Positions 1 to 48,877 of a stretch of 54,855 nt of DNA are shown here, one piece after another. Under the pieces are notes generated by a model. The model was not told where the DNA came from and did no database searches. It saw only the letters and a program-made list of their open reading frames with translations. Made by a program: the position numbers and the translations under genes. The stretch is from the IMG/VR virus record IMGVR_UViG_3300031280_000001, positions 1-54,855 of that record; one strand, written 5' to 3'. How positions within the stretch are numbered: position 1 is the stretch's first letter; each line of letters starts with the position of its first letter. The stretch comes from a virus.

Positions 1-3000
1 CAACATCCATGGGAATTTCTTCACCACGTTCTCTATCCTTAGTGTACCGCTCGGCCCGATCTTCAATCTTTCTTATTTCCTCCCAAGCTTTGGCACGAAA
101 TTCCGGATTAGTTAATCCCTCTTCTACGATACCGCTAATAGTTTCAAATTTCTCAATACGCTGGTATCCGCTCAATGGATTGAAGTAACTCCGCTTAGCT
201 TTCTTTTTACCTGGGCCTTTACCAGTAAATTCAGTCATCGATTTGGGATTTACCTCTTTCTGAATACTAGCAATATACTTCTCGGCCTGCTGCCTACTTA
301 AACGATATTCAGCATCTTGAATCATCCGGGTTAAATCTTTCTTAATTGCTTCAACCTGGTTCCATCCATGCTTACCAATACTAATATTATTTATCTGACG
401 AAGTGTCCTGGTACGTACCGGTATCTTCAACCGATCAAACCGCGCTCTATTTTCCTTCAAGAAATCTTCCAGCTTCCCCCGGATCGCTTTATTTTCCTGC
501 TTAGTCATCATCCTTCCCTTACCTTCTGCCCTCTTTTGCTTTTGAGCCGGGGTATCTTCGTAGATTTTGAATTCATCTTCCCATCCTTTAACCAGGGATT
601 CACGCTCAGGCTTAGTAGCTTTTTCTACAGCAGCCCGCTCTATAGCCTTGGCTTCCATCTCTCGCTCTTTAGCTACATATGTAGTCTCACCAGTTTCCAT
701 ATTATATATGGCTTCCTGATTATACTTCTCACCAAGCTTCAGAGTTTCCTCTTTAGTCTTGGCAAAATTAACCAGGTCAATATAAGTCTGATCGGTTTTC
801 TCGTCGTACCAAGTTCCCACTCCGAGCTTTTCACCCTTCTCATATCTCTCCTGTAATTCAGCTTGATGTTTATCCTTGAACTCCTGAATACGCTCATCAG
901 TAATTTCCTTGCCTTTAATAATCTCTCCGGTTTCACCTATAACAAATGGAGTTTCGGTTTTAACCTTATCCATGTTAATAAATCCCGGCTTACCATCCTG
1001 CTTACCGCCATACATGAAAGTAGATCCACCAGTTTCAGCATGAAGCTGTGACTGAGTTCTCAATTCCTGCGGCCGGACCGGTGAAAGAATGTCCACACGT
1101 TTAGTTCCTCTCCAGTCTGATACTATACCTTCATATCCATCCAGATAAGCTTTCCTGCTAGCTTCCCGATATTCCCTAGCATAATTCCCGGTTTTGTCTG
1201 TTACATACCCTTTTGGATCTGCATTAAAATCATACAACTTATTTGCTGGGATCTTAACAGTATATGGTGTACGACCAGCTTTTGTTATATTCTTCTCTCC
1301 ATCTTCCGGATTAATATAAAACTCTACCTGGCCACGGCCTTCATTTGCTTTGACATCCTTAGCTCCAGCAGCCGTACCGTGCATTCCCGGCTCTAATTTT
1401 CCGCCCATAATTTCTTTGGGGCCCCAGTGATATAAAGTAACATCACCGGCTTCATCTATCTGAAGTTTGCTTTTAGTCTCCTCTGATAAAGTAGGCTTAG
1501 CTTCCGGTTTAATTTCAGCCTTCCGAATCTCAGCCTGATCGATTCTCCACTTTCGACGCTCATTCATTTTAATAGAGGCTGCAATATCAGCATCACCCAT
1601 GGAAGCGTATTTATCCTCCAAACTTATCTCTCCAACCTTTTTTCCTTTAGCTTTTTCAATAGCCTTACCAACTTCACTAAAGGAAGTTTCTTTAGTTGGA
1701 AACACTACGGACTCCATTATACCCTCTACTCGGCCTTCCGGCATATTTTCCAAAGCCTCAATAAAAGCTTCTTTGTTTCCAAATCCACGCCGGCCTATTC
1801 TATATCGAGAAATAGTAGGATCAGAAAATTTTCTTACCTCCTGCTCCTCTTCAGCAGCTGCCATTTCTTTATCAAACTTATCATGTAAAGCCTTACGCTC
1901 ATGCTCTGTAGCAAATTCAATAGTCTTACCTTCAGCTACTGATAATTCTGTATCAATTAACTTATATTTACCCTCTCCAATTTTCGTCAGACTACCAGAT
2001 ACTCTATCCATACCAAGTATATTGGCCTCAAATCCAGCATCAGTTACTTCACCAGGCTTAAGCTCTCCCCCCTCTTTTGTCTCTTCTAATCTTTTTTGTA
2101 CTTCAGGATCTTTTAACTGTGTTTCAATCTTGGCAGTTTTGGCCGGCTTAACTGGTTTAGCTGGGGCCTCAAGTGGAGCTTTCTCTTTACCCTCTAAAGT
2201 AATTGGTTTTGGCCGCTCCTTACCTTCAGGCGGATTCAAAGACTCATTCCATGTGGTATAGAATTTCCGCATTAATTTCTCCTGTTCAGCTGATCTATGT
2301 TCGGGCCGGGTTTCCCATGCATCCAGTACTTTATTAAGATCTATACCATTATCCATAGTACCATTAGATACAGCTTCTTTATCAGGTAATGATAACTTTT
2401 CGAATTCTCTGTGCTTACCTATGTCAACAGCCTCCTTATCCAGGAACCTGGCACTCTTTTCAGCTTCGCCTTTAGTAGTTGCCCTAACAGCATCTACCAA
2501 CATTTTACTGCCATCTTTGTCTACCTGGTAAGCTTTAATGCCGTAACCTTCCTCACTTTTAAATATCTCAACACTGTTTATTTCCGGCGTAATTTTAGCA
2601 AATTTACCAGTACGTTCGTACAATAATTTAGATTTTGTAATCCATGGAATATTCTCATCTGCCATTATATCAATAAATGTCTTATCATTCAATGTTTTCG
2701 AGAAAGGTCCTATTTCTCCCTCCGGTCTGTAACCTTCAACCATGTCCTTTTCCAATGGGGTGAATTCAGCATCGAATTCTTTTTTACGTTCGGGCTTATC
2801 AAATGCTTTTGACTGCTCAAAATATTTACTATATTTCTTAATGGTAGCTTCAGGGTGTTGAACATAACCAGCGCTTTTAGATCCGAGTACCATCTTTAAT
2901 GCATGCATCCAGTCAATACTACTCAAAGGCTTATCCTGCAAAAATGCATCACCGGCCCCAAATATACCTATTTCAGCTCCAAAAGCAATACCCTTTCCAC

Positions 3001-3937
3001 TCAGTTGACCAAATTTACCTAACCCTTTGGCCATAACAGATTCCAGATACTTACCACCTATTCCGACAGCCCCTAAAGCAACACCCATTTTCATTCCGAT
3101 CACGCCTTGTTTCCTTACATCACGCCATTCAACTTCCCTCATGGGAATATCCTCCTCATTCATTTGATTAAGTGTCTCTCCTACAACATTATATAATCCC
3201 AGAGCTCCCGCACTACCGCCCATCCCCTCTATGACTGGTGGAGCTTTAGCCGCTAGATTGAGTAATATTTTTGCATTCTTTGTAGCGGCTGCTGCGATCA
3301 TATCCTCAGCCAGAACACCTTTTACACCCATTTTCATCAATCCCTTACGGACCAAATTAAATCCGCCATAAGCCATACCTTTTCCTAAAGCAGTCCTTGT
3401 ACCAAGCATCATAGCGCCTTTACCTATAAGTCCTCCTGCCGCGAATAACGGACCATCAAAAAGAAATCCTAATGATATAGCGGCTACATCCTGTAAAAAA
3501 TTAGGGTCCATTTTATCCAGTTCCTCCTGATCATACATTGCCTCACCATTCAATATATCGTAAGCCAGACCCATCAAAGAGCCATTAAATCCAGCGCGAA
3601 ATACATATGTTTCTTCTAATTTACTCTGCGACGCTTCAGCCAAATCTGGACGAGTTGGATTAAACAAACCACCAGCTATTCCCATTGTACTGAATTCCTT
3701 TGTAGGTTCGCCACGTGCACCAAATAATTCTTCCCATGGACTTAGATCATCCTCCTGATCAACTTCTTCTTTTATACGCCGCCCGTCTGGAGACAGTTTA
3801 ATATCCTCCACACCCCCGCCAGAAAAACCGAAATCATCTTCCGGAACTATCTCTGCTTGAGGAGCTACTGCTGGTCCAAACCCAAAATCATCTTCGGGTA
3901 ATTGCGTATTCTGACTTTTGATATCGTCTTCTGGCAT
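1..3937 (-). CDS. Giant virion/ejection-type protein, C-terminus beyond window
   Basis: The frame is open from an ATG at 3937 to the left edge, giving at least 1312 residues, and it begins 9 nt after the stop of the 617-aa gene. The N-terminus has two acidic PEDDFGFG-type repeats. Residues about 120-330 hold several hydrophobic, Gly/Ala-rich helices. The remainder is charged and Lys/Glu-rich. Around residues 830-960 there is a segment beginning LYHWGPKEIMGG and ending GYEGIVSDWRGTKRVDIL. It resembles the ADP-ribosyltransferase-like domains seen in phage polyvalent proteins, but this is a pattern impression only. Position after two other ejection-type genes suggests a T7 gp16-like internal virion protein or a crAss-type cargo protein. 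A virion RNA polymerase was considered, but no DxDGD-like motif was noticed. Confidence 0.75.
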   Translation of the reverse strand, partial: MPEDDIKSQNTQLPEDDFGFGPAVAPQAEIVPEDDFGFSGGGVEDIKLSPDGRRIKEEVDQEDDLSPWEELFGARGEPTKEFSTMGIAGGLFNPTRPDLAEASQSKLEETYVFRAGFNGSLMGLAYDILNGEAMYDQEELDKMDPNFLQDVAAISLGFLFDGPLFAAGGLIGKGAMMLGTRTALGKGMAYGGFNLVRKGLMKMGVKGVLAEDMIAAAATKNAKILLNLAAKAPPVIEGMGGSAGALGLYNVVGETLNQMNEEDIPMREVEWRDVRKQGVIGMKMGVALGAVGIGGKYLESVMAKGLGKFGQLSGKGIAFGAEIGIFGAGDAFLQDKPLSSIDWMHALKMVLGSKSAGYVQHPEATIKKYSKYFEQSKAFDKPERKKEFDAEFTPLEKDMVEGYRPEGEIGPFSKTLNDKTFIDIMADENIPWITKSKLLYERTGKFAKITPEINSVEIFKSEEGYGIKAYQVDKDGSKMLVDAVRATTKGEAEKSARFLDKEAVDIGKHREFEKLSLPDKEAVSNGTMDNGIDLNKVLDAWETRPEHRSAEQEKLMRKFYTTWNESLNPPEGKERPKPITLEGKEKAPLEAPAKPVKPAKTAKIETQLKDPEVQKRLEETKEGGELKPGEVTDAGFEANILGMDRVSGSLTKIGEGKYKLIDTELSVAEGKTIEFATEHERKALHDKFDKEMAAAEEEQEVRKFSDPTISRYRIGRRGFGNKEAFIEALENMPEGRVEGIMESVVFPTKETSFSEVGKAIEKAKGKKVGEISLEDKYASMGDADIAASIKMNERRKWRIDQAEIRKAEIKPEAKPTLSEETKSKLQIDEAGDVTLYHWGPKEIMGGKLEPGMHGTAAGAKDVKANEGRGQVEFYINPEDGEKNITKAGRTPYTVKIPANKLYDFNADPKGYVTDKTGNYAREYREASRKAYLDGYEGIVSDWRGTKRVDILSPVRPQELRTQSQLHAETGGSTFMYGGKQDGKPGFINMDKVKTETPFVIGETGEIIKGKEITDERIQEFKDKHQAELQERYEKGEKLGVGTWYDEKTDQTYIDLVNFAKTKEETLKLGEKYNQEAIYNMETGETTYVAKEREMEAKAIERAAVEKATKPERESLVKGWEDEFKIYEDTPAQKQKRAEGKGRMMTKQENKAIRGKLEDFLKENRARFDRLKIPVRTRTLRQINNISIGKHGWNQVEAIKKDLTRMIQDAEYRLSRQQAEKYIASIQKEVNPKSMTEFTGKGPGKKKAKRSYFNPLSGYQRIEKFETISGIVEEGLTNPEFRAKAWEEIRKIEDRAERYTKDRERGEEIPMDV

Positions 3938-3945
3938 GATTATTC

Positions 3946-5799
3946 TTATTTAATTCGGAATTCTGTAGCAGTACCTTCGTTTAATCCCTTGAGTATATCT
4001 TCCCTTGTCCATTTACCCCCGGCAATAATTTTTTCATACGACACCCATTTTCCCGCTGCGTTTTTTAATTCAAGATCCTCTACTATGTAAGTACCAAGGC
4101 CAGTCTCCTTTTTCCTCTCAGCAAATCCTTCCCTGGCTCGTCTTTCTCGTTTACTTTTAGACCACGCTTTTTGATCCTCTGTAGCCTCTTCCATAGTTAT
4201 GAACTTATTACGTCCACCCTCTTTCCTTGGTTCTAATACTGGAGTTGGAGTCTGCTGTGCAGCATTTCTCACATCATTCCAAACAGCTTTACCATACTGG
4301 GTAGACATTTGACCCATTAAACGCTCTTCCGGTATCATCACTTCAGCGGCTCCACCAAGATCAATAACATCAATTGTTTTCTCTCCATCAGTGGGACCAA
4401 CTACATTAAAGAATAATTTCCCTTTCTTCAGACCTTCTTCCTTACCTGTGTCCGGATCTTTATAATCAATCATAGCTTGAATATCCAATGTACTGGATAC
4501 TTGTAACTTATCTGTAGGATCTTTATACATATTAGTAGGTCTGGCCTTCAACGGAGAATTAAAATACCCGCGTATAACATCGCCCTTCTGAGTTCGGATA
4601 CTAACTATATCATTAGGACTGATATCTATAGAAGTAGCTCTTTTACCTGCGTTAACTGCGGGGAGAGATATTTGATGAGTATCATATTGCCGTTGACCGT
4701 CATCGCTATATTTTGGTATCTTTGTTCCACTGTATCCACGATCAGCGTTTCCAAATAAACCAAATGATTGATTTATACTTCTCTGTCTTTCAGCCATCTC
4801 CCTACGGACGGCTGTAACAGTCTTATCCTCTGTCTGCTTGATACCAGCCCTAAACTGCTTACTAAATATAGCCTTCGCTTTTGGATCACTTTCCAAATAA
4901 GGATATGACTGTAGAGCATCTTCTACTAACATATCTTTTTCATCATCAGTGTAAAACCCTTCTTGCTGAACTCGCTCTAATACCTTATAAGCATCAGTTG
5001 ATAATTTAGCATTCTCTGTTATGGTAGTTGTTACCCTACTTTTAATCTGGCCTAGAGACGCTGTAACGGCGTCATTAATGCCGGTATAAGCTTGGAATTC
5101 ACCAACAAATTTATTTAATTCCTCAATACTTTTCGTTCCAAGATTATCGTGATTATGAATAAAAGCCGCAGCTTTTTGAACAGCGTCATCATTAACGTAA
5201 TTCTCTGCCGAATTAACGGCTTTGGCAAGTATATCCATAGCTTTGGGGGCCAATTGGTTATACATCCTGGCATATGTCTGATAACCTCTGATCATATTCT
5301 TAAACCCGGGATCATACTTGGTCAGCATTCTAGCCTTAGTATAATCGCCATCTAGTTCATGAGCCTTCTCATCCAGATAAGTATTAATGTTTGTTTGCAA
5401 TTTAGCATTAAATTCATCCTGGGCTAACGGATTTACCAACTCTATGTATGCATCAAGGGCCTCATTATTGGCCGGCCCAAACATCGCAAATTCTTTAACG
5501 GCTGCATCCTGCTCAGCTTTGCGTCTAGCTTCCAACATGCCAATAGGTATAAGACCCTGATTAGCAACGAATATAGGAATATTACCCAACGACTTACTTC
5601 CGAATGTGCCGGCCTGTAAAGGTCTATCTGCACTTGGAAAATAAGTACTTTTTGCTTGAGCGCCTGGCGAAGGGGCCTGAAAACTCCTTTGTAGTTTATC
5701 AATATAGGATGCATCAGACTTCGTTAATTCACTCCTGGACATACTATAATTACTTGTTCCACCTTCTTTTACTACGCTCGGATTTTTATTTTCTGACAT
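3946..5799 (-). CDS. Putative internal virion (ejection/cargo) protein, 617 aa
   Basis: This is a hydrophilic, mostly helical protein with no signal peptide or membrane segment. The N-terminal 90 residues are Ser/Pro/Gly-rich and look disordered. Residues about 90-290 contain long amphipathic helices of the coiled-coil type. The C-terminal half mixes short beta-like stretches with charged loops and ends EFRIK. No catalytic motif is recognised. It lies between a Gly-zipper protein and the giant edge protein, the same three-gene arrangement as the podoviral ejection proteins (T7 gp14-gp15-gp16). Function is inferred from context only. Confidence 0.7.
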   Translation of the reverse strand: MSENKNPSVVKEGGTSNYSMSRSELTKSDASYIDKLQRSFQAPSPGAQAKSTYFPSADRPLQAGTFGSKSLGNIPIFVANQGLIPIGMLEARRKAEQDAAVKEFAMFGPANNEALDAYIELVNPLAQDEFNAKLQTNINTYLDEKAHELDGDYTKARMLTKYDPGFKNMIRGYQTYARMYNQLAPKAMDILAKAVNSAENYVNDDAVQKAAAFIHNHDNLGTKSIEELNKFVGEFQAYTGINDAVTASLGQIKSRVTTTITENAKLSTDAYKVLERVQQEGFYTDDEKDMLVEDALQSYPYLESDPKAKAIFSKQFRAGIKQTEDKTVTAVRREMAERQRSINQSFGLFGNADRGYSGTKIPKYSDDGQRQYDTHQISLPAVNAGKRATSIDISPNDIVSIRTQKGDVIRGYFNSPLKARPTNMYKDPTDKLQVSSTLDIQAMIDYKDPDTGKEEGLKKGKLFFNVVGPTDGEKTIDVIDLGGAAEVMIPEERLMGQMSTQYGKAVWNDVRNAAQQTPTPVLEPRKEGGRNKFITMEEATEDQKAWSKSKRERRAREGFAERKKETGLGTYIVEDLELKNAAGKWVSYEKIIAGGKWTREDILKGLNEGTATEFRIK

Positions 5800-5816
5800 G
5801 ATTTTAAATTTTTATC

Positions 5817-6572
5817 CTACATTGGAGTAGTAGAAGTGATTCCTCCACCGCCGCCTCCAAACATAGGTGCTACATTCTGTACGAGACCAGGCAGCTCGCT
5901 TAGAGCCTGCATATTCATCATATTCCTATTCTGGAACATAGCCGAAGCAAATTGAGCATAATCGGCTTTGGATTGAATGGCTTCCCATAAATCTACATCA
6001 AGCGCCCGTTGCGATTCTACTGAGCCTTTTTGGTATAATGCTCTCATCACATTCATAAGTTGCTGGTTGTATTCAGTTCTCTGCGATCCAGTCATTCCGA
6101 GTAGCTTGTTAATATTCTCTCCCATTTGTATACCAGACTGTTTCATGAATGACATGGCCATCGCTGGACTGCTATACTTCATTCCAACAGTGGCTTGTTG
6201 AGCACTGGTCCTCTCCAGCAAATCCTTGGCCGTCTGGAATTCGGGAGTCATTCCTGTCTCCACCATCCTTTTCTCTCGTCTGAGCTCTCTTCCAAAATCT
6301 GCAAAACCTGGATCTGGTATTGGGGTTAAAGCAGTTTCTCTGGCTTGAGCAAAAGAGGACTCTGAGGATTTAAGATCTTCATAAGCAGATTTAGCTTTTC
6401 CTCTTCCGCCGAAAAATCCTACAATGGCCCCAATTCCGGCGCCTATACCGGTACCTAAACCGATACCTATAGGACCACCAAGTGAGCCTATAGTGGCTCC
6501 AGTGGCGGCTCCTGATACGGCCCCAGCGCCGGCTCCCTTCCAACTTTCATGAGCAATGTTAATGTCTGGCAT
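5817..6572 (-). CDS. Glycine-zipper virion protein, likely ejection pore component
   Basis: The 251-residue product has a strongly Gly/Ala-rich hydrophobic segment at about residues 12-55, with the small-x3-small spacing of glycine zippers (GAGAGAVSGAATGATIG, GIGLGTGIGAGIGAIVGFFGG). Such segments insert into or line membranes. The rest is helical and polar, ending in a run of Gly before STTPM. Size, zipper and position next to the IHF-like gene suggest an internal virion protein that enters the cell envelope during DNA ejection. It could also be a tape-like or bacteriocin-like protein. The family is not identified by name. Confidence 0.7.
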   Translation of the reverse strand: MPDINIAHESWKGAGAGAVSGAATGATIGSLGGPIGIGLGTGIGAGIGAIVGFFGGRGKAKSAYEDLKSSESSFAQARETALTPIPDPGFADFGRELRREKRMVETGMTPEFQTAKDLLERTSAQQATVGMKYSSPAMAMSFMKQSGIQMGENINKLLGMTGSQRTEYNQQLMNVMRALYQKGSVESQRALDVDLWEAIQSKADYAQFASAMFQNRNMMNMQALSELPGLVQNVAPMFGGGGGGITSTTPM

Positions 6573-6581
6573 GGCTTTAGT

Positions 6582-6887
6582 TTAATATTCTCTTGAGTCC
6601 ACTCTTATTACCCGACTAAGTCGGTCAGCAACTCTAAATTTAAGCTGCTTATGGGCAGGGATGGTATCACCAGTCATGTTTGACGGACGCGCACCCTTCT
6701 GCGCAAAACAAAAGCGCCCCAAGGTTTTTAATTCTACTTCATCTTCATTCAGCAAGTGTTCCTTAACTATCGCAAGCAACGAATCAAACATAAAGTCACA
6801 TTGGACCTTTGTAATCGTCGTATACTCAGACAGTTCGTTAACTAGCTGCAATTTTGTAATCTTTGTTGTTTTCCTAGTTTTCATCAC
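6582..6887 (-). CDS. HU/IHF-family DNA-bending protein
   Basis: The 101-residue product has the HU/IHF layout: two N-terminal helices (TKLQLVNELSEYT...VQCDFMFDSLLAIVKEHL), then a beta sheet with VELKTLGRFCFAQKGARPSNMTG, then a C-terminal segment with the FRVADRLSRVI helix. The GRF and KGARPSN parts match the body-to-arm region of HU/IHF. Family proteins bend DNA in packaging, replication and recombination. In crAss-like phages one or two IHF-like genes lie in the structural block near the nozzle gene, as here. A start one codon later (the second Met) is equally possible. Confidence 0.88.
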   Translation of the reverse strand: MMKTRKTTKITKLQLVNELSEYTTITKVQCDFMFDSLLAIVKEHLLNEDEVELKTLGRFCFAQKGARPSNMTGDTIPAHKQLKFRVADRLSRVIRVDSREY

Positions 6888-6936
6888 GTTTTACTTTATC
6901 TAACACATCAATATGCAATATACAATTAATTTACCA

Positions 6937-9900
6937 TTACTCAATAATATTATTAAAGCCTACACGGATCGCCTTCACTTCGTATGCGGTAGTTAAGGAA
7001 CCATCAAATGTAATCCTAATGGTAAGGTATGGTCCCTGCATTGCTTTAGTATCTTTAGCTCCTGAATCCCTGCGTCCTATATAAGAGTACAAACCCGGAT
7101 TCAGATCCCTTACTACAGGCGGCGTATCTGTATTAGGAGATGATGCACCTGTATCAAATATCATTTCTTTTGGAGTCGCATTTGCATGCAATAAATAATC
7201 AATAAATTCCCAGGATGTATGTAAATCCGGATTAATTACGATATCAATATATGGGTCCATGTTTTCTTCTGAATCACTTAACAGAGTGTATGTACCGTTC
7301 TCAACTGAGTACAGTCTATCAGCCCTGGCTCCAAGAAGATATGGCCATTCATTATATGTAGCCGATTCTTTATTCTTAAATATCATCCTATCATAATCAT
7401 GGGGAAGTTCATGAGTCCAGTTATTCAAAAAGAAATTGAACACATACATATTGCCGGCCATCTCTACCCACAATTCATTTTCCCTTTCATTAAATACTGT
7501 TAATAATGTCGGATAATTTGTACCGTGCGGTAAACCTTTACATACAGCATATAATCTATCTCTCCAATTTGCTATGATATTCCTAACATCATTATTAAAG
7601 AATAGCATAACACCTTTATTATTGACCCATGATAATGCCTGCACAAATTGACCATCCGCCGTCTCCATTACCCCCTCAGATTTACTTCTGGATAACTGAC
7701 TTGGACATCCTACTGCAGTGTTTAACCAGATTTCATCCTGAATAAACTTACCTTCCAAATCTATGAGACCTACCTGCTCCCCAACCGCACCGCGCATGAC
7801 AGTTTTATTAGTAAGAACTAATGCAAGGCCACTCTCTGTAACTGCATATAAATTCCTTCCCTGACCACTCACGGCATCATATAAAATAGTGATCTGTCCA
7901 CGATCCGCTCGCTTTAAATCATAATAATTAATCGGAAGAAATGTTCTCAGGGACGGAGAATTCTGTATCGCCGGATTCTTATCCAGAGAAAAGGCTAGAC
8001 GCTGCCAAAACTTAACCCGCTCTGCATATCCAGCTAAGGGCTTATTAACGGCCCTAGCGGACACATCTTTGGTATAGTCATAGTTGAGCATCTGTGGCGT
8101 TACAAACCCACCACGCTCCCATAACAGGTACTCATCGCCAAATTTATCATAGTAATCACTGTAGACAGCAGCACGAAGATAATAATCCTTTGGTTCCTCA
8201 TCGGTATTTCTAGCTGGGTAACTAGTAGGCCGCTGCACATAATTACGTCTCGGATAAGTATCACCATACGCTAAAATAGTATTTGATTTGCTTTCGCAGA
8301 TAAAACCGAATACCCATTGACGAATATTATCTACAGTAATATTATAATCATCTGGTATTATATCAGAAACAGGTGTTCTTTCATTATCGTACATTGATCT
8401 GGCTTGTACACCCCCGCCCGAAACTGGAGCCTCTTTAGCATGACGCGGAATAAAAACAGCATTATTTACTCCGGATATTCTATAGGTATACCCAGGCATG
8501 GGCCCATTTATCTGTAATTGTTCAGTTGGAGCGTCAGCTTGTATTGAATCAGTAATTTGACCCATACTTTTAGCGCCATTAACTTTATTATCTACAACAG
8601 CATTAAACACTTCACCAACAAATGAATCACCTCCAAATACTATGATTGGACTATTATTATTATACACAACTTTTATCTCATCACCTTCAGGAGGATAGAA
8701 ATTTAAAGTGGCTACAACATCAAATTTAATGGTAACAGGATTCTTCGGATCAACTGTAAAGATAGTGGCCTGCCCATTATTAATCCATGAGGCTGTAATG
8801 GTATACATGCCGTAATAATTCTTACCGTACAGTGTAAAATACCCAGTCCCAAGACCTCCGCCGCTATTAATAGCTGCGCCCCAAGTTGTTATACTACCAC
8901 TAGCTTCAAGTGTTACATCCATCCACCGTTGCCCATTAACCATGATGTATCTCACATCAGCATCAGCAGCGGCTATCTTAGCGGCATGTACATCTTCCGG
9001 ACGCTCATCTACAAGAGCATAAGTTTGACCAGATCCGCCGATTGCGGTTCCTATAATACTCTCAAGTTTCTGATATACGCCGGTATCTTGGTAGCTTTGC
9101 GTATTGGTAGTAAGGATATTAGCATTATTATGTACTATGTTGACTATATAAACAGGCTCATGAAATACTCTGTTAACGTTATCATTTCCTGTAGATTTTG
9201 TCATAGTATCTAATTGTGCGTAAACGGCTGCATCCACCGTTAACTCCAACATATGACTACGACCATCTGAATTACCATATTGCCCACCATCGATTTTTTC
9301 GACGCTGCTGATATCAAACAAATAATCAGGAGATCTGGATGTTATTCCTGCTCCCATATTAGATCCGGCTAATCCCAAGTAGTTCCGCCATCTGCCGAAT
9401 GTCACATGACCAGATCCACGGCCTATTTTAGCCAGCGGGTCCAGGCCATTATAAATATAATTCTCATAAGCAATATTAGCATAGGATAATAAATCCACAC
9501 TGTAACAATTCGGCGCCTCATAAGAACCAGAGAAAGCAGAAGAGTTAAACCCAAGTACGCTAACTAATTGTAACTGATAATCATCTGGATTATTAATGAT
9601 ATCGTCATACAGATAAGCTTTATTACCATAAAATGGATCAATATCAGGGGAATAAAAAGTCAATTTAGATCCCTCTTTTTCAGCCGGGCTTTGACTCCCC
9701 TGTTGAGCAAAAACATAAGTCGCAAGACCTTGCGCCAATACGCGATTAGCCGGCGGGGTGCGTACAATCTTAAAACCCCTTACCCAAGATGGAAGTAGAT
9801 TTGTATTAATACCCGTAAAAGCCCAACCAAGGGACCAAATATGATTATTTAAAGATTGATGAAAATTATAAGTGTGATCATCCATCTGATCACATGGCAT

Positions 9901-29380: not shown

Positions 29381-30085
29381 ATGGAAACAAAGAAATTACA
29401 AGACCTCTCCTTTGAGGCTCGCTGCGGTTTAATTGCTAAGGTGATACACAGCGCCAATAGAGCATATAATGACGCAATCGGCGGTAAGATTCAGAATCTA
29501 TCGTGGGAAGAAATTCGTGAGGAGGAGCGCCAGGGACTCATCAAGGCTGTCATCAGTATGATCAAAGAGCCCAAGACCCCGGAAACATCTCATCAAGCTT
29601 GGTGTGAGGCTAGGAAGGCCGCCGGCTGGACCAAGGATAAGGTTTATAGCCAGCACAGAAAAACTCATCCCAATTTGATTCCTTATGCCGAACTTCCTTT
29701 TGAAGAACAGTTCAAGGATCATCTATTTATGGGCATTGCCAGCATTTTTGTTGGGGGTCTGGGTATGTTCTACATGCCTGAAGTAATGGGAGATCCAGTA
29801 GCTATTGATTCTGAAGATACCAAACTCCGCGTTGTGGAGGATGATGAGGATCTGAAAAAGGAAAATGCAGAGCCGGATAATCTTATCAATGGAGTTGACA
29901 AGATTTATGAGCCAGTAACTACAGATCAGAACCCTGCCGGGTACACAGTCACTGATGCAGCTGAAACCAGATTTGGCGGAAATCCTCCATCAGCGTTAGA
30001 TCCAAATGTATCTAATTCGATTGAAGAGATTAAGCCTAAAGCTAAATCTAAAGCTAAGAAACCGGCCCCTAAAGTAAATAAGTAA
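29381..30085 (+). CDS. RyR-domain protein, 234 aa
   Basis: Residues about 60-120 carry a RyR domain: KTPETSHQAWCEARKAAGW, then HPNLIPYAELPFEEQFKDHL. In ryanodine receptors this module is a repeat. Stand-alone versions occur in bacteria and Bacteroides phages with a suspected role in sensing ligands or nucleotides. The N-terminal 50 residues are helical (FEARCGLIAKVIHSANRAYN). The C-terminal 100 are acidic, then end in a Lys/Ala-rich tail (KPKAKSKAKKPAPKVNK). A short hydrophobic stretch after the domain (FMGIASIFVGGLGMF) may be membrane-associated. Confidence 0.82.
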   Translation: METKKLQDLSFEARCGLIAKVIHSANRAYNDAIGGKIQNLSWEEIREEERQGLIKAVISMIKEPKTPETSHQAWCEARKAAGWTKDKVYSQHRKTHPNLIPYAELPFEEQFKDHLFMGIASIFVGGLGMFYMPEVMGDPVAIDSEDTKLRVVEDDEDLKKENAEPDNLINGVDKIYEPVTTDQNPAGYTVTDAAETRFGGNPPSALDPNVSNSIEEIKPKAKSKAKKPAPKVNK

Positions 30086-32380: not shown

Positions 32381-32842
32381 ATGAAATATGTAATAGTAGA
32401 TATCGATGGTACTGTAGCTCACAGCGCTACTCGCCAAGCTAAGATTCTCCAGCTTCTGGAGGTTACTCCTATTAAGGAGATGCCATGGTCAGAATTATTC
32501 AAAGACTGTCAATTGGATAAACCACTTTGGGTGGTCATTGATTTAATACTCGCAATAGCTAATAAGTACCATATTGTATTTTGCACCAGCCGAAATGAGA
32601 CATTTAGAGAAAAAACCCGGGCTTGGATTGATGAATATATTGGTTTATGGAAGGCTCCGCTGCTTATGAGAAAGTCTATAAAGGACCATCGATCAGATAG
32701 TATCGTGAAGCCGGAACTCCTTAAGGAAGCTGGTATTACGACGAAGAATACAGCTTTTATCATTGAAGATAAAAATTCAATAGTTCAAACCTGGCGAGAT
32801 CTTGGTTTCACAGTTTTACAACCAATTAATAACGAATATTAA
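32381..32842 (+). CDS. HAD-family phosphatase (PNK 3'-phosphatase-like)
   Basis: The 153-residue product shows HAD motifs in order: VIVDIDGTVAHS (DxDGT nucleophile), VFCTSRNETF (motif II, Ser/Thr), Lys at LMRKSIKDHR and FIIEDKNSIV (motif IV). This layout matches the phosphatase half of T4-type polynucleotide kinase, which removes 3' phosphates from DNA or RNA and takes part in tRNA repair. A kinase domain is absent here. Other HAD substrates are possible. Confidence 0.82.
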   Translation: MKYVIVDIDGTVAHSATRQAKILQLLEVTPIKEMPWSELFKDCQLDKPLWVVIDLILAIANKYHIVFCTSRNETFREKTRAWIDEYIGLWKAPLLMRKSIKDHRSDSIVKPELLKEAGITTKNTAFIIEDKNSIVQTWRDLGFTVLQPINNEY

Positions 32843-33715: not shown

Positions 33716-33943
33716 ATGAAATTCAGTTTGAATTTTAAGAAAAATCCCATCACTACGGTGGTTGGTTTATTGTTAATCGTTGTGGGTCTATTTCCTTATA
33801 TCTTCCCCGGAAGAGTAAGTTTGGACGAAGCAGGTCAGCTTCAAGGGCTGGTCACTAACCTGGGCGCGGGTGTGGAAAGTGTGGTTGAGATCGTAGCGGG
33901 TATCATTGCCATTTTCGCAAAAGACGTTGCAGCAAAAGCATAA
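33716..33943 (+). CDS. Holin-like membrane protein, 75 aa
   Basis: The product has a basic N-terminus (KFSLNFKKNP), two hydrophobic helices at about residues 12-30 (TTVVGLLLIVVGLFPYIF) and 53-70 (VESVVEIVAGIIAIFAKD), and a short Lys-ended tail. Size and topology fit a class II/III holin that opens the inner membrane to the endolysin. It has its own promoter and terminator, so its level can be timed apart from its neighbours. The amidase gene is about 14 kb away on the other strand. Confidence 0.65.
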   Translation: MKFSLNFKKNPITTVVGLLLIVVGLFPYIFPGRVSLDEAGQLQGLVTNLGAGVESVVEIVAGIIAIFAKDVAAKA

Positions 33944-33970: not shown

Positions 33971-34014
33971 TTTCCTCTCCTTGGGCTACATGCCGGGGAG
34001 GGGGTTTTTATTTT
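33971..34014 (+). terminator. Rho-independent terminator after holin gene
   Basis: CCTCTCC (33974-33980) pairs with GGGGAGG (33995-34001), extended by flanking T-G/G-C pairs, and is followed by TTTTTATTTT. Confidence 0.8.
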
Positions 34015-34030
34015 ATGCACTGAATTTTAA

Positions 34031-34061
34031 TTTGACATACTAGCAAAAAAGATGTATCTTG
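34031..34061 (+). promoter_or_regulatory. Promoter for protease-like gene
   Basis: TTTG (34031-34034), 20 bp, TATCTTG (34055-34061), one T short of the usual -7 box. The ATG is at 34101. Confidence 0.55.
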
Positions 34062-34100: not shown

Positions 34101-35282
34101 ATGAAAACAATATTAAAGCGCATAAAAACAATTCGATTAAAAAAGCTATGGGCGTATCTTGTAAATGCCCTGCAGAAGTCTTTACGTTTTTTTGTTCGGG
34201 GCTGGCTCCGAATTAGAAAGATAGTATTAATTTTAATATTTTGTTTATCGATAAGTTTGGCTGGAGGTACATCGTATTGGTTATACCAACATTTTAGTCA
34301 GCCCCGTGAAAAATACGCAGTATTAATATCCGGGGGTGAAACACGATATGATAATGAGATGATTCATTCAGAATATTGGTATGATTTATTGATGACTTAT
34401 AAAAGTTATATAGATCAGGGATATACCCATAAAAATATATTTGTTTTTTATGGTCAAGGACCTGGCCATGATTTCGATAGCCAATATAATCATTATAATA
34501 TCAAAACCTATTTTCCCGGAATAAAAACTATTATTGATTATGATAATAGCTGGGAAACCATAAAAAGCGGATTAAAAGATATTGATTTTTATGTGACAAA
34601 ACATGATAAAATAACTATTCAGTGGGTCGTAGGCCATGGTGGAATACCCTACGGTTCCAGGGGGGATGAATATAATTCATATAGAGCATATATTGGGGGA
34701 ACCAACCAGTCTTATCAAGAGAAAGAAGATATTTATAAAGCCATAAATCAGATTGATGATTTTAAGCAGCGTGAAATATATTGGATGACTTGTCATTCTG
34801 GATCAATGGCAGTAGGTCAAAATAAATTTTCTGGGTTCCGTACAACTATTCTAACTTCCTCCAATTGGAATGAAGCTTCTTATTCATCCTATCCAGGCGG
34901 CTACACGGATGGGTGGTATGGATATAGTGGAGGATATATAACCAGTGAATTTAATTGGGTATTATATGGAATTAGGGATAATCAATATTTTGATAATACA
35001 AAATATAACTTCCATAATAGTAATCTGGAATATCCTATTACCCCTACTAAATTATATTATGAATTAAAGAATTCATCTTATATTAATTCAAAGGTACAAA
35101 TTGGCGGACTATCTCCAGACGCCGTGTATTGTCATGTAGTGGATACGCTAGATGATTGGTATACTAAAGCAAAGATTCCGATATATAAAGTACAACGTTT
35201 CTTTAAGCGTATCGAACAATTTCGTACTCATATTGAAGAGGCGGTAGCCAAGGTTCTAGGATATGAACCCATAAATCGTTAA
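34101..35282 (+). CDS. Membrane-anchored clan CD protease (legumain C13-like)
   Basis: The 393-residue product begins with a basic 40-residue segment and one membrane helix (IVLILIFCLSISLAGG, about residues 44-62). The domain beyond it starts KYAVLISGGETRYDNEMIHS, has IQWVVGHGGIPYG with His near 179, and EIYWMTCHSGSMAVG with Cys near 230. His-Gly then Cys with SGSM matches legumain-type C13 peptidases, whose motif is HGxxG and ExCxSGSM. The C-terminal part is polar. Topology would place the protease outside the cytoplasm. It has its own promoter, and a region of long hairpins follows. A substrate in host envelope or defence is conceivable but unproven. Confidence 0.78.
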   Translation: MKTILKRIKTIRLKKLWAYLVNALQKSLRFFVRGWLRIRKIVLILIFCLSISLAGGTSYWLYQHFSQPREKYAVLISGGETRYDNEMIHSEYWYDLLMTYKSYIDQGYTHKNIFVFYGQGPGHDFDSQYNHYNIKTYFPGIKTIIDYDNSWETIKSGLKDIDFYVTKHDKITIQWVVGHGGIPYGSRGDEYNSYRAYIGGTNQSYQEKEDIYKAINQIDDFKQREIYWMTCHSGSMAVGQNKFSGFRTTILTSSNWNEASYSSYPGGYTDGWYGYSGGYITSEFNWVLYGIRDNQYFDNTKYNFHNSNLEYPITPTKLYYELKNSSYINSKVQIGGLSPDAVYCHVVDTLDDWYTKAKIPIYKVQRFFKRIEQFRTHIEEAVAKVLGYEPINR

Positions 35283-35529: not shown

Positions 35530-35579
35530 AACGATCTCCCTACGAGTGGCACTATATCATTACTCGTAGGGAGATCGTT
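35530..35579. terminator. 18-bp perfect inverted repeat between convergent operons
   Basis: AACGATCTCCCTACGAGT (35530-35547) is perfectly inverted at 35562-35579, with a 14-nt loop. It sits where the rightward protease gene and the leftward tRNA operon meet. There is no strong T run on either side, so it may act as a bidirectional stop, a 3'-end stabiliser, an RNase III site or a protein site. Confidence 0.55.
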
Positions 35580-41626: not shown

Positions 41627-42073
41627 ATGAAAGATTTAAATGAAATTTCAGAGATTACAGTTAGTTATTCACCTAAAATAAAAAACAGTGATAGGGCAAT
41701 TATCACATCTAGCCAAAAAGTTTATGATTTGGTTCGTAATAACTGGTCTGAAATAAGTATCAGAGAGGAAATGAAGGTTTTGTTTTTAAACAGGGCAAAT
41801 AAAGTACTTGGTATTTATGAGCTAAGTAAAGGCGGTATTAGCGGTACAGTAGTAGATGTACGACTATTATTTGCAGCTGCATTAAAATCTTTAGCCTGTG
41901 GTATTATACTGATTCATAATCACCCTTCAGGTAATTTAAAGCCTAGCGATGCAGATATAAAAATAACAAATAAAATACGTGAAGGCGCAAAACTTTTAGA
42001 CCTCACTGTATATGATCATCTGATAATATCGGATGAAGGATATTACAGTTTTTCAGATGAGGGTATTATTTAG
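41627..42073 (+). CDS. RadC-like JAB-domain protein, 148 aa
   Basis: LLFAAALKSLACGIILIHNH, then HNHPSGNLKPSDADI, is the RadC/JAB motif (HxH...SxxD) that binds one zinc in a MPN fold. An N-terminal segment (VYDLVRNNWSEISIREEMKV) is also RadC-like. The helix-hairpin-helix of full-length RadC is absent, as in many mobile-element versions. Its role in DNA metabolism or defence is unsettled. TAG stop overlaps element E by one base. Confidence 0.9.
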   Translation: MKDLNEISEITVSYSPKIKNSDRAIITSSQKVYDLVRNNWSEISIREEMKVLFLNRANKVLGIYELSKGGISGTVVDVRLLFAAALKSLACGIILIHNHPSGNLKPSDADIKITNKIREGAKLLDLTVYDHLIISDEGYYSFSDEGII

Positions 42074-47438: not shown

Positions 47439-48167
47439 TTATCGTGTTTGATTTAAAATAGTCTGGGCACCAAGCACTATGATAGCACCTTCTATCCTAT
47501 GCCACCAAGGGCGTTTATAAAATGGAGGTTTATTCTGTATCTTTACATTATGCATCTTTACAGTATGAACATATGGATTAGCATCCTCTATCGTTACTAC
47601 GGGTCGAAGAGGCTTGAATAATCCCGTCTTCTGATACCCTAAAAATATGGTACTTTCATGTCTGATTGTAAGACCCTGGATACCGACTGTAGCACCATAT
47701 ACTATTCCATTCAATGATACCCACTCGCTGGAATAAGTAAAATTAGCTGGAACCCTTAAATATGTGCCCGTATCAATATCGGGGCAGTTAGTTGAATCAA
47801 TTATTACAACACTGGGCGTATCTACAGCTGCAATCAGTTCTTCATAGAATACGATTTGATTCTCCAACTTAATAATATGCTCAACTTGCTTCAGATTCTT
47901 ATTCTTCAGATCCTCATTCTCGATGATACCTGCAGCTATAGCATTCTCCAGAGAAGCTACCTTCTGATCCTGGATATAGATTTCTTGGCCCTGGTCTGTG
48001 ACTATCACCTCAAAATGATGGATAGTATCAGATAATAATTCCTGTAACTGGACATGTCCGGCCCTTGCATCTCTCCACTGTATGTAGAAATACAACGCCA
48101 ATATAATAACTATGCCTATTATGATAACCTTAATATTCTGGTATATTGATTTTAAAATTTTGTTCAT
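47439..48167 (-). CDS. Spanin-like / DUF6808-like membrane protein, 242 aa
   Basis: A single N-terminal membrane helix (VIIIGIVIILALYFYIQW) is followed by a coiled coil (residues about 35-120), a beta-rich part (TYLRVPANFTYSSEWVSLNG) and a C-terminal segment with a second weak hydrophobic helix (IEGAIIVLGAQTIL). It starts 4 nt inside the end of the amidase gene. Linked genes and topology suggest the i-spanin or another lysis protein; similar proteins appear in Bacteroides phages. Exact function is unknown. Confidence 0.62.
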   Translation of the reverse strand: MNKILKSIYQNIKVIIIGIVIILALYFYIQWRDARAGHVQLQELLSDTIHHFEVIVTDQGQEIYIQDQKVASLENAIAAGIIENEDLKNKNLKQVEHIIKLENQIVFYEELIAAVDTPSVVIIDSTNCPDIDTGTYLRVPANFTYSSEWVSLNGIVYGATVGIQGLTIRHESTIFLGYQKTGLFKPLRPVVTIEDANPYVHTVKMHNVKIQNKPPFYKRPWWHRIEGAIIVLGAQTILNQTR

Positions 48168-48877
48168 GATTTTATTTTTAAAAGATTCTTATGTATCACA
48201 ATTTCATGCGTCTCTTTGAATGCCTGGACAATCTTAATCATATTACTAAGTTTTAGCATATTACAACACTCGGCAAAGTTAGTAAAAAATCCAGTTTCTG
48301 ATAGTATAGCCGGCATATGTGTCTTAACTAACACAGTAAATTTGGCTTCCTTGTCCGGATCACCATCACCCAGGCCCGGACGCATCTTCCAACCTAGTAT
48401 TTCCTCCAGTCTATAGAAGGCTTCAGTGGCTATAGGATCGCTCAAAGTCCGTCCTGGTGAGGTATACACCTCAACGCCGTTAACTGACTCAACGCCGAAG
48501 CCGTTGCCATGAATTGAGTGGTAATAAGTTTTGATACCCTTCTTTTTTACCTTCGCATTAAAATGATTAGCGCGGATACAACGCTCAGTGCGCCCATAAT
48601 CCGTATGACCCGGTGTTACTATATAATATCCCAGGTTATTATAATAGAGTTCTGCGGCATACATCCACGCTATGGCCCGGTTCCATACCCCCTCATAAAA
48701 TACAAAAGAACCATGATCATACATTTTTCTAGGCGCTGTGACATATTCGCCATTGATCATACCCCCATGCCCAGGATCAATTAACTCTACTACCTTCGAA
48801 CCAATCGGTATCGATTCAAGCGGAGTATGCTCCCTCAGGTAATCGATAGTATTCATTAAAGCTTCTGTAGTCAACAT
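48164..48877 (-). CDS. N-acetylmuramoyl-L-alanine amidase (Amidase_3 endolysin)
   Basis: The 237-residue product has the zinc site of the Amidase_3 family: VVELIDPGHGGMI (His), FYEGVWNRAIA (Glu), TYYHSIHGNG (His) and the catalytic Glu in AILSETGFFTN. It cleaves the bond between MurNAc and L-Ala. The first 20 residues are helical without a signal peptide, so release would need the holin. The start may be the internal Met8. Confidence 0.9.
   Translation of the reverse strand: MLTTEALMNTIDYLREHTPLESIPIGSKVVELIDPGHGGMINGEYVTAPRKMYDHGSFVFYEGVWNRAIAWMYAAELYYNNLGYYIVTPGHTDYGRTERCIRANHFNAKVKKKGIKTYYHSIHGNGFGVESVNGVEVYTSPGRTLSDPIATEAFYRLEEILGWKMRPGLGDGDPDKEAKFTVLVKTHMPAILSETGFFTNFAECCNMLKLSNMIKIVQAFKETHEIVIHKNLLKIKS

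Follow-up and report, generated by a model that had tools for sequence, protein, structure and literature searches.

A phage gene predicted to encode a membrane-tethered clan CD cysteine peptidase related to family C13

The window, namely the whole 54,855-base virus record analyzed here, contains genes including those for a portal protein, SbcCD-like, Dda-helicase-like and HNH proteins, and tRNA. It also encodes an RyR domain protein with matches to PHROGs of unknown function (29381-30085; PF02026, 35.9 bits vs. a cut-off of 27.4), a stand-alone HAD protein of the polynucleotide kinase phosphatase type, in which no kinase domain is evident (32381-32842; PF25109), and a RadC-like JAB domain protein (41627-42073; PF04002, E 5e-39). 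The gene studied here encodes a protein with relatives in IMG/VR, i.e. L002 and L003 (100% copies), L004 (76–77%) and the pair L005 and L006 (52–55%), and further scans for viral relatives returned the same five contigs or none. The features of the locus are as follows.

33716..33943, + strand: 75-aa protein with two hydrophobic segments, upstream of the gene; holin-like in size and hydropathy only
33973..34004, + strand: terminator-like hairpin and T run upstream of the gene (z -3.7; counterpart in L004 at 9851-9879)
34032..34060, + strand: promoter-like TTGACA-N17-TATCTT, found by scan and conserved in L004
34101..35282, + strand: gene for the predicted C13-related clan CD cysteine peptidase (ORF from ATG to TAA, 393 aa)
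34101..34277, + strand: N-terminal basic stretch and hydrophobic segment, residues 1-59 (hydropathy and charge count)
34311..34949, + strand: predicted peptidase domain, spanning about residues 71-283 (from alignments with HMM and PDB profiles)
34365..34385, + strand: HSEYWYD signature, residues 89-95, invariant in the phage sequences and in the bacterial proteins L012 to L015
34635..34643, + strand: HGG, residues 179-181, with predicted catalytic His179 (H and first G invariant in 13 sequences)
34791..34808, + strand: CHSGSM, residues 231-236, with predicted catalytic Cys231 (C231 and G234 invariant in 13 sequences)
34947..34949, + strand: E283, by alignment the likely counterpart of legumain S1 Asp231
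35530..35579, + strand: 18-bp perfect inverted repeat, terminator-like, downstream of the gene (z -7.9; stem kept in L004, 11371-11420)
48164-48877, - strand: amidase-type endolysin (PHROG endolysin), a recognizable lysis enzyme

As described in the first-pass annotation, the ORF carries HGG and CHSGSM motifs behind one membrane segment. Searched alone, the deduced protein gave nothing above the curated cut-offs in Pfam, PHROGs and NCBIfam, and plain phmmer detected no significant match in PDB. PF01650 (Peptidase_C13) had no match above the Pfam gathering cut-off in the window protein or its viral relatives, and a profile made only of the phage proteins (IMG/VR relatives) had legumain as its best PDB match, at an E value of just 0.12. 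Weak Pfam matches to RNase_H, CBF and Tox-PLDMTX, all sub-cut-off and not recurring among the relatives, were rejected.

A bacterial genome scan identified four relatives (L012 to L015) in MAGs of Aminicenantes, Chrysiogenales, Prolixibacteraceae and Anaerolineales, with E values of 5e-27 to 2e-19. One of them, L015, passes Pfam Peptidase_C13 (23.1 vs. 22.8 bits), as do 6 of 8 additional bacterial proteins obtained from genome searches. The window protein matched an independent bacterial profile, built solely from proteins passing Pfam Peptidase_C13 with L015 excluded, at E=1e-15 (Z=1e6), compared with 3.7 for the top-scoring one among 2000 shuffled copies. In a profile-profile comparison, hhalign aligned the phage proteins with the bacterial C13-type proteins over residues 68-263 with a probability of 99.4% (E=3.6e-21). 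The best PDB match of a joint profile of 13 sequences was GPI-anchor transamidase (1.9e-9), accompanied by metacaspase-4 (2e-9), VPE gamma (3.4e-9), legumain (1.5e-7) and, also among the matches, peptide asparaginyl ligases.

In the 13-sequence alignment of phages and bacteria, invariance is limited to five columns, namely G120, H179, G180, C231 and G234. Since these include the His, Gly and Cys of HGG and CHSGSM, the two motifs are not chance matches. The Gly beside the catalytic His is structurally conserved across clan CD (PMC4357240), and H179-G180 followed by C231 conforms to the clan CD signature, in which His-Gly precedes the Cys motif and both lie where neighbouring strands end. The order of strand-His and strand-Cys would be compatible with the caspase/haemoglobinase fold, but the AlphaFold model (4-sequence input) was poor, with a pLDDT of 40. 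On the basis of the bacterial-profile, hhalign and PDB-profile matches and the invariant His/Cys columns, the window protein belongs, as judged from sequence, to the C13 side of the clan CD cysteine peptidases, where it forms a divergent phage branch, in agreement with the first-pass assignment to a C13-like clan CD protease with a membrane anchor. Since its own score lies under the Pfam cut-off, we name it C13-related and not a plain C13 member.

The gene is under purifying selection, with a dN/dS of 0.28 versus L004 and of 0.25–0.26 versus L005, for which dS is near saturation. The large divergence from C13 and the altered S1 residues (see below) would fit a catalytically inactive or structural descendant that serves as a binding protein; however, with this selection and with the His, Cys and adjoining glycines invariant, we consider such a descendant very unlikely.

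Three kinds of known proteases are worth comparing: 1) Legumain/vacuolar processing enzyme (MEROPS C13) gives a profile match of domain length and has the catalytic HG and CxSG in common with the phage protein, in which a match to the AP/LSAM prodomain is not evident. 2) Metacaspases (C14B) share HG and CHSGG-like motifs and have a basic P1, as predicted for the phage protein, but their profile match is limited to the central part (83-171 of 265) and their family definition lacks an export signal. 3) GPI-anchor transamidase GPI8/PIG-K (C13), the best PDB profile match, is likewise membrane-tethered and outward-facing, but acts in a multi-subunit complex, and such partners were not seen for the phage protein. 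The top rank of the transamidase, the asparaginyl ligases among the PDB matches and the GPI8-like tethered, outward-facing architecture would be consistent with a transpeptidase instead of a hydrolase, resembling GPI8/PIG-K or plant asparaginyl ligases and attaching or circularizing a protein on the outer side of the membrane. However, the E values of the C13 members are too close to tell transamidases from hydrolases, neither partner subunits nor a sorting signal was identified, and the Asn-pocket residues are not retained; a transpeptidase thus appears quite improbable.

In the profile alignment with VPE, which maps the S1 positions across distant proteins of about 20–25% identity, phage H89, S90, E91 and Y92 lie opposite legumain N42, Y43, R44 and H45, M229 lies opposite E187 (human legumain numbering), and HSEYWYD aligns with legumain/VPE YRHQAD. 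S260 and E283 probably correspond to legumain S216 and D231. The P1 pocket of legumain is zwitterionic and consists of Arg44, His45, Ser216 and Asp231 (PMC4357240); this zwitterionic S1 pocket was not found in the phage protein, which has Glu91 for Arg44 and Tyr92 for His45. With Glu and Met in place of the S1 residues R44 and E187, the legumain-like label of the first-pass annotation finds no support as far as canonical legumain function is concerned. All phage proteins and L012 to L015 have E91, while Arg is retained in L024, L028, L033 and L035, and the residues at the pocket positions vary among bacterial C13s. In clan CD structures, the charge of the alpha-1/L4/L5 region goes with P1, the Arg-specific MALT1 having acidic residues in this region (PMC4357240). 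This pattern and the acidic E91 predict a basic P1 specificity, with cleavage after Arg or Lys.

The secreted bacterial proteins L012 to L015 have in common with the phage protein the peptidase domain, the His/Cys motifs, HSEYWYD, the Glu at the S1 position and an export signal. They are about 700 aa long and carry long C-terminal beta domains (with a CARDB-like C-terminus), whereas the 393-aa phage protein ends in a short tail predicted to be helical and, unlike them, has a long basic N-terminus. Their genes lie near genes for an M14 carboxypeptidase (3 of 4) and a propeller-like protein. In L012, L013 and L014 (about 3000-8100), a cassette is conserved across phyla. It encodes the C13-like protein with the CARDB-like tail, a secreted protein of propeller/NHL-like type and an M14 zinc carboxypeptidase, whose Pfam match was tested in L014. 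In L015 and L025, the propeller-like gene still adjoins the C13 gene.

The legumain-related kind of enzyme is hardly known in viruses. At tblastn and profile sensitivity, no genuine C13 relative was detected in 50,697 phage records, and in the table of a 2015 review viruses are entered as lacking C13 (PMC4357240), which supports the earlier remark that such proteases are unusual in phages. Literature searches revealed no paper on a phage C13 peptidase, and a plasmid search gave one match, which was not significant (E 0.4). A 'Peptidase C13' recorded for Acinetobacter phage MD-2021a (L038, CAKLQH020000046.1) was rejected; as the contig has argJ, nadA, rpe and tRNAs, it appears to be a mislabelled Acinetobacter chromosome contig and the 'phage' gene a label error.

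The phage represented by L005 and L006 encodes a giant protein with 31–32% identity to crAss-like phages. In L005 (252-10016) this protein has 3254 aa, with the crAss-like match in residues 480-1080, and has a GSDFDIDK motif reminiscent of crAss-like RNA polymerases. The peptidase is the only protein that the window and the L005 phage have in common at E<1e-4, and in the tree the three phage sequences group together with a support of 99/100. Since the peptidase is shared by otherwise unrelated phages, movement of the gene between unrelated phages, at least one of them crAss-like, is the most direct interpretation. The G+C content of the gene (33.6% vs. 40.2% for the window) fits inter-phage transfer. 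Of 26 genes, only 1 has a Shine-Dalgarno motif upstream; together with the crAss-like relative, their scarcity hints at a host among the Bacteroidota.

The first-pass annotation had given the gene its own promoter and placed it next to a holin unit, the latter being only partly right. The promoter-like element is present and kept in L004, and a similar pattern is expected 0.21 times by chance in the window, but sigma-70-like matches in the region (29 found vs. 26.3 expected) are not in excess over chance. With this element and with terminator-like structures on either side, the gene may form a small transcription unit by itself in this phage lineage. As to the holin unit, the small two-segment membrane protein does lie upstream, but it matched no holin family, the terminator-like hairpin lies between it and the peptidase gene, and the amidase-type endolysin is located elsewhere. 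On the minus strand at 47439-48877, the endolysin lies beside a single-TM protein containing a long coiled region, and the two probably constitute the actual lysis module. A role of the peptidase in lysis or egress, in which it would be released or activated late and degrade envelope or linkage proteins alongside holin and endolysin, would be in line with the small membrane protein and a lipoprotein-like protein encoded upstream, as well as with the position of the gene in L005, where it begins 24 nt after the giant crAss-type gene, suggesting late expression. However, the intervening hairpin, the distance of about 12–13 kb to the endolysin and its adjoining single-TM protein on the opposite strand, and the lack of any other window protein in common with the L005 phage argue against this role, which we regard as unlikely.

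Hydropathy and charge suggest that residues 1-59 are a signal anchor or signal peptide of N-in/C-out orientation, in which one hydrophobic segment (about residues 41-59, mean KD 2.07) follows a stretch with 13 K/R and 0 D/E residues (positive-inside). Since the N-terminus is basic and the four closest cellular relatives begin with signal-peptide-like segments, the active site is predicted to face outward. The first-pass annotation had also suggested that the protein may block caspase-like abortive infection. Cleaving or blocking caspase-like abortive-infection proteins would suit an enzyme of the same clan as the defence caspase-like proteases, encoded by a mobile gene that is apparently transcribed separately. 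However, the known caspase-like abortive systems act, to our knowledge, in the cytoplasm, and such a role is therefore unlikely for an outward-facing active site. In addition, the window protein had no match to the PADLOC defence models at E 0.1, and no defence or counter-defence genes adjoining the peptidase gene were identified. This suggestion is thus not supported, and we rate counter-defence as highly improbable.

On balance, it seems somewhat probable that the gene encodes an active C13-related protease cutting envelope proteins. The enzyme, from the divergent phage branch of clan CD, would be expressed from its own small transcription unit and tethered at the inner membrane by the basic stretch and hydrophobic segment, so that the His179/Cys231 active site would face the periplasm and could cleave at least one envelope protein after a basic residue. 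An action on the host envelope, which the first-pass annotation had also suggested, is plausible. The likely outcome would be an altered surface or export machinery of the infected cell, and the reading we prefer is a protease acting on the envelope to exclude superinfecting phages or to aid release. It is further conceivable, but rather doubtful, that these proteins represent a mobile phage family of C13-type proteases, tethered at the inner membrane and with an S1 pocket switched to basic residues, passed between unrelated phages and remodelling the host envelope, e.g. to exclude other phages. A phage-borne, exported C13-type protease in two unrelated phage lineages would offer phages a new means of acting on the exterior of the host's inner membrane.
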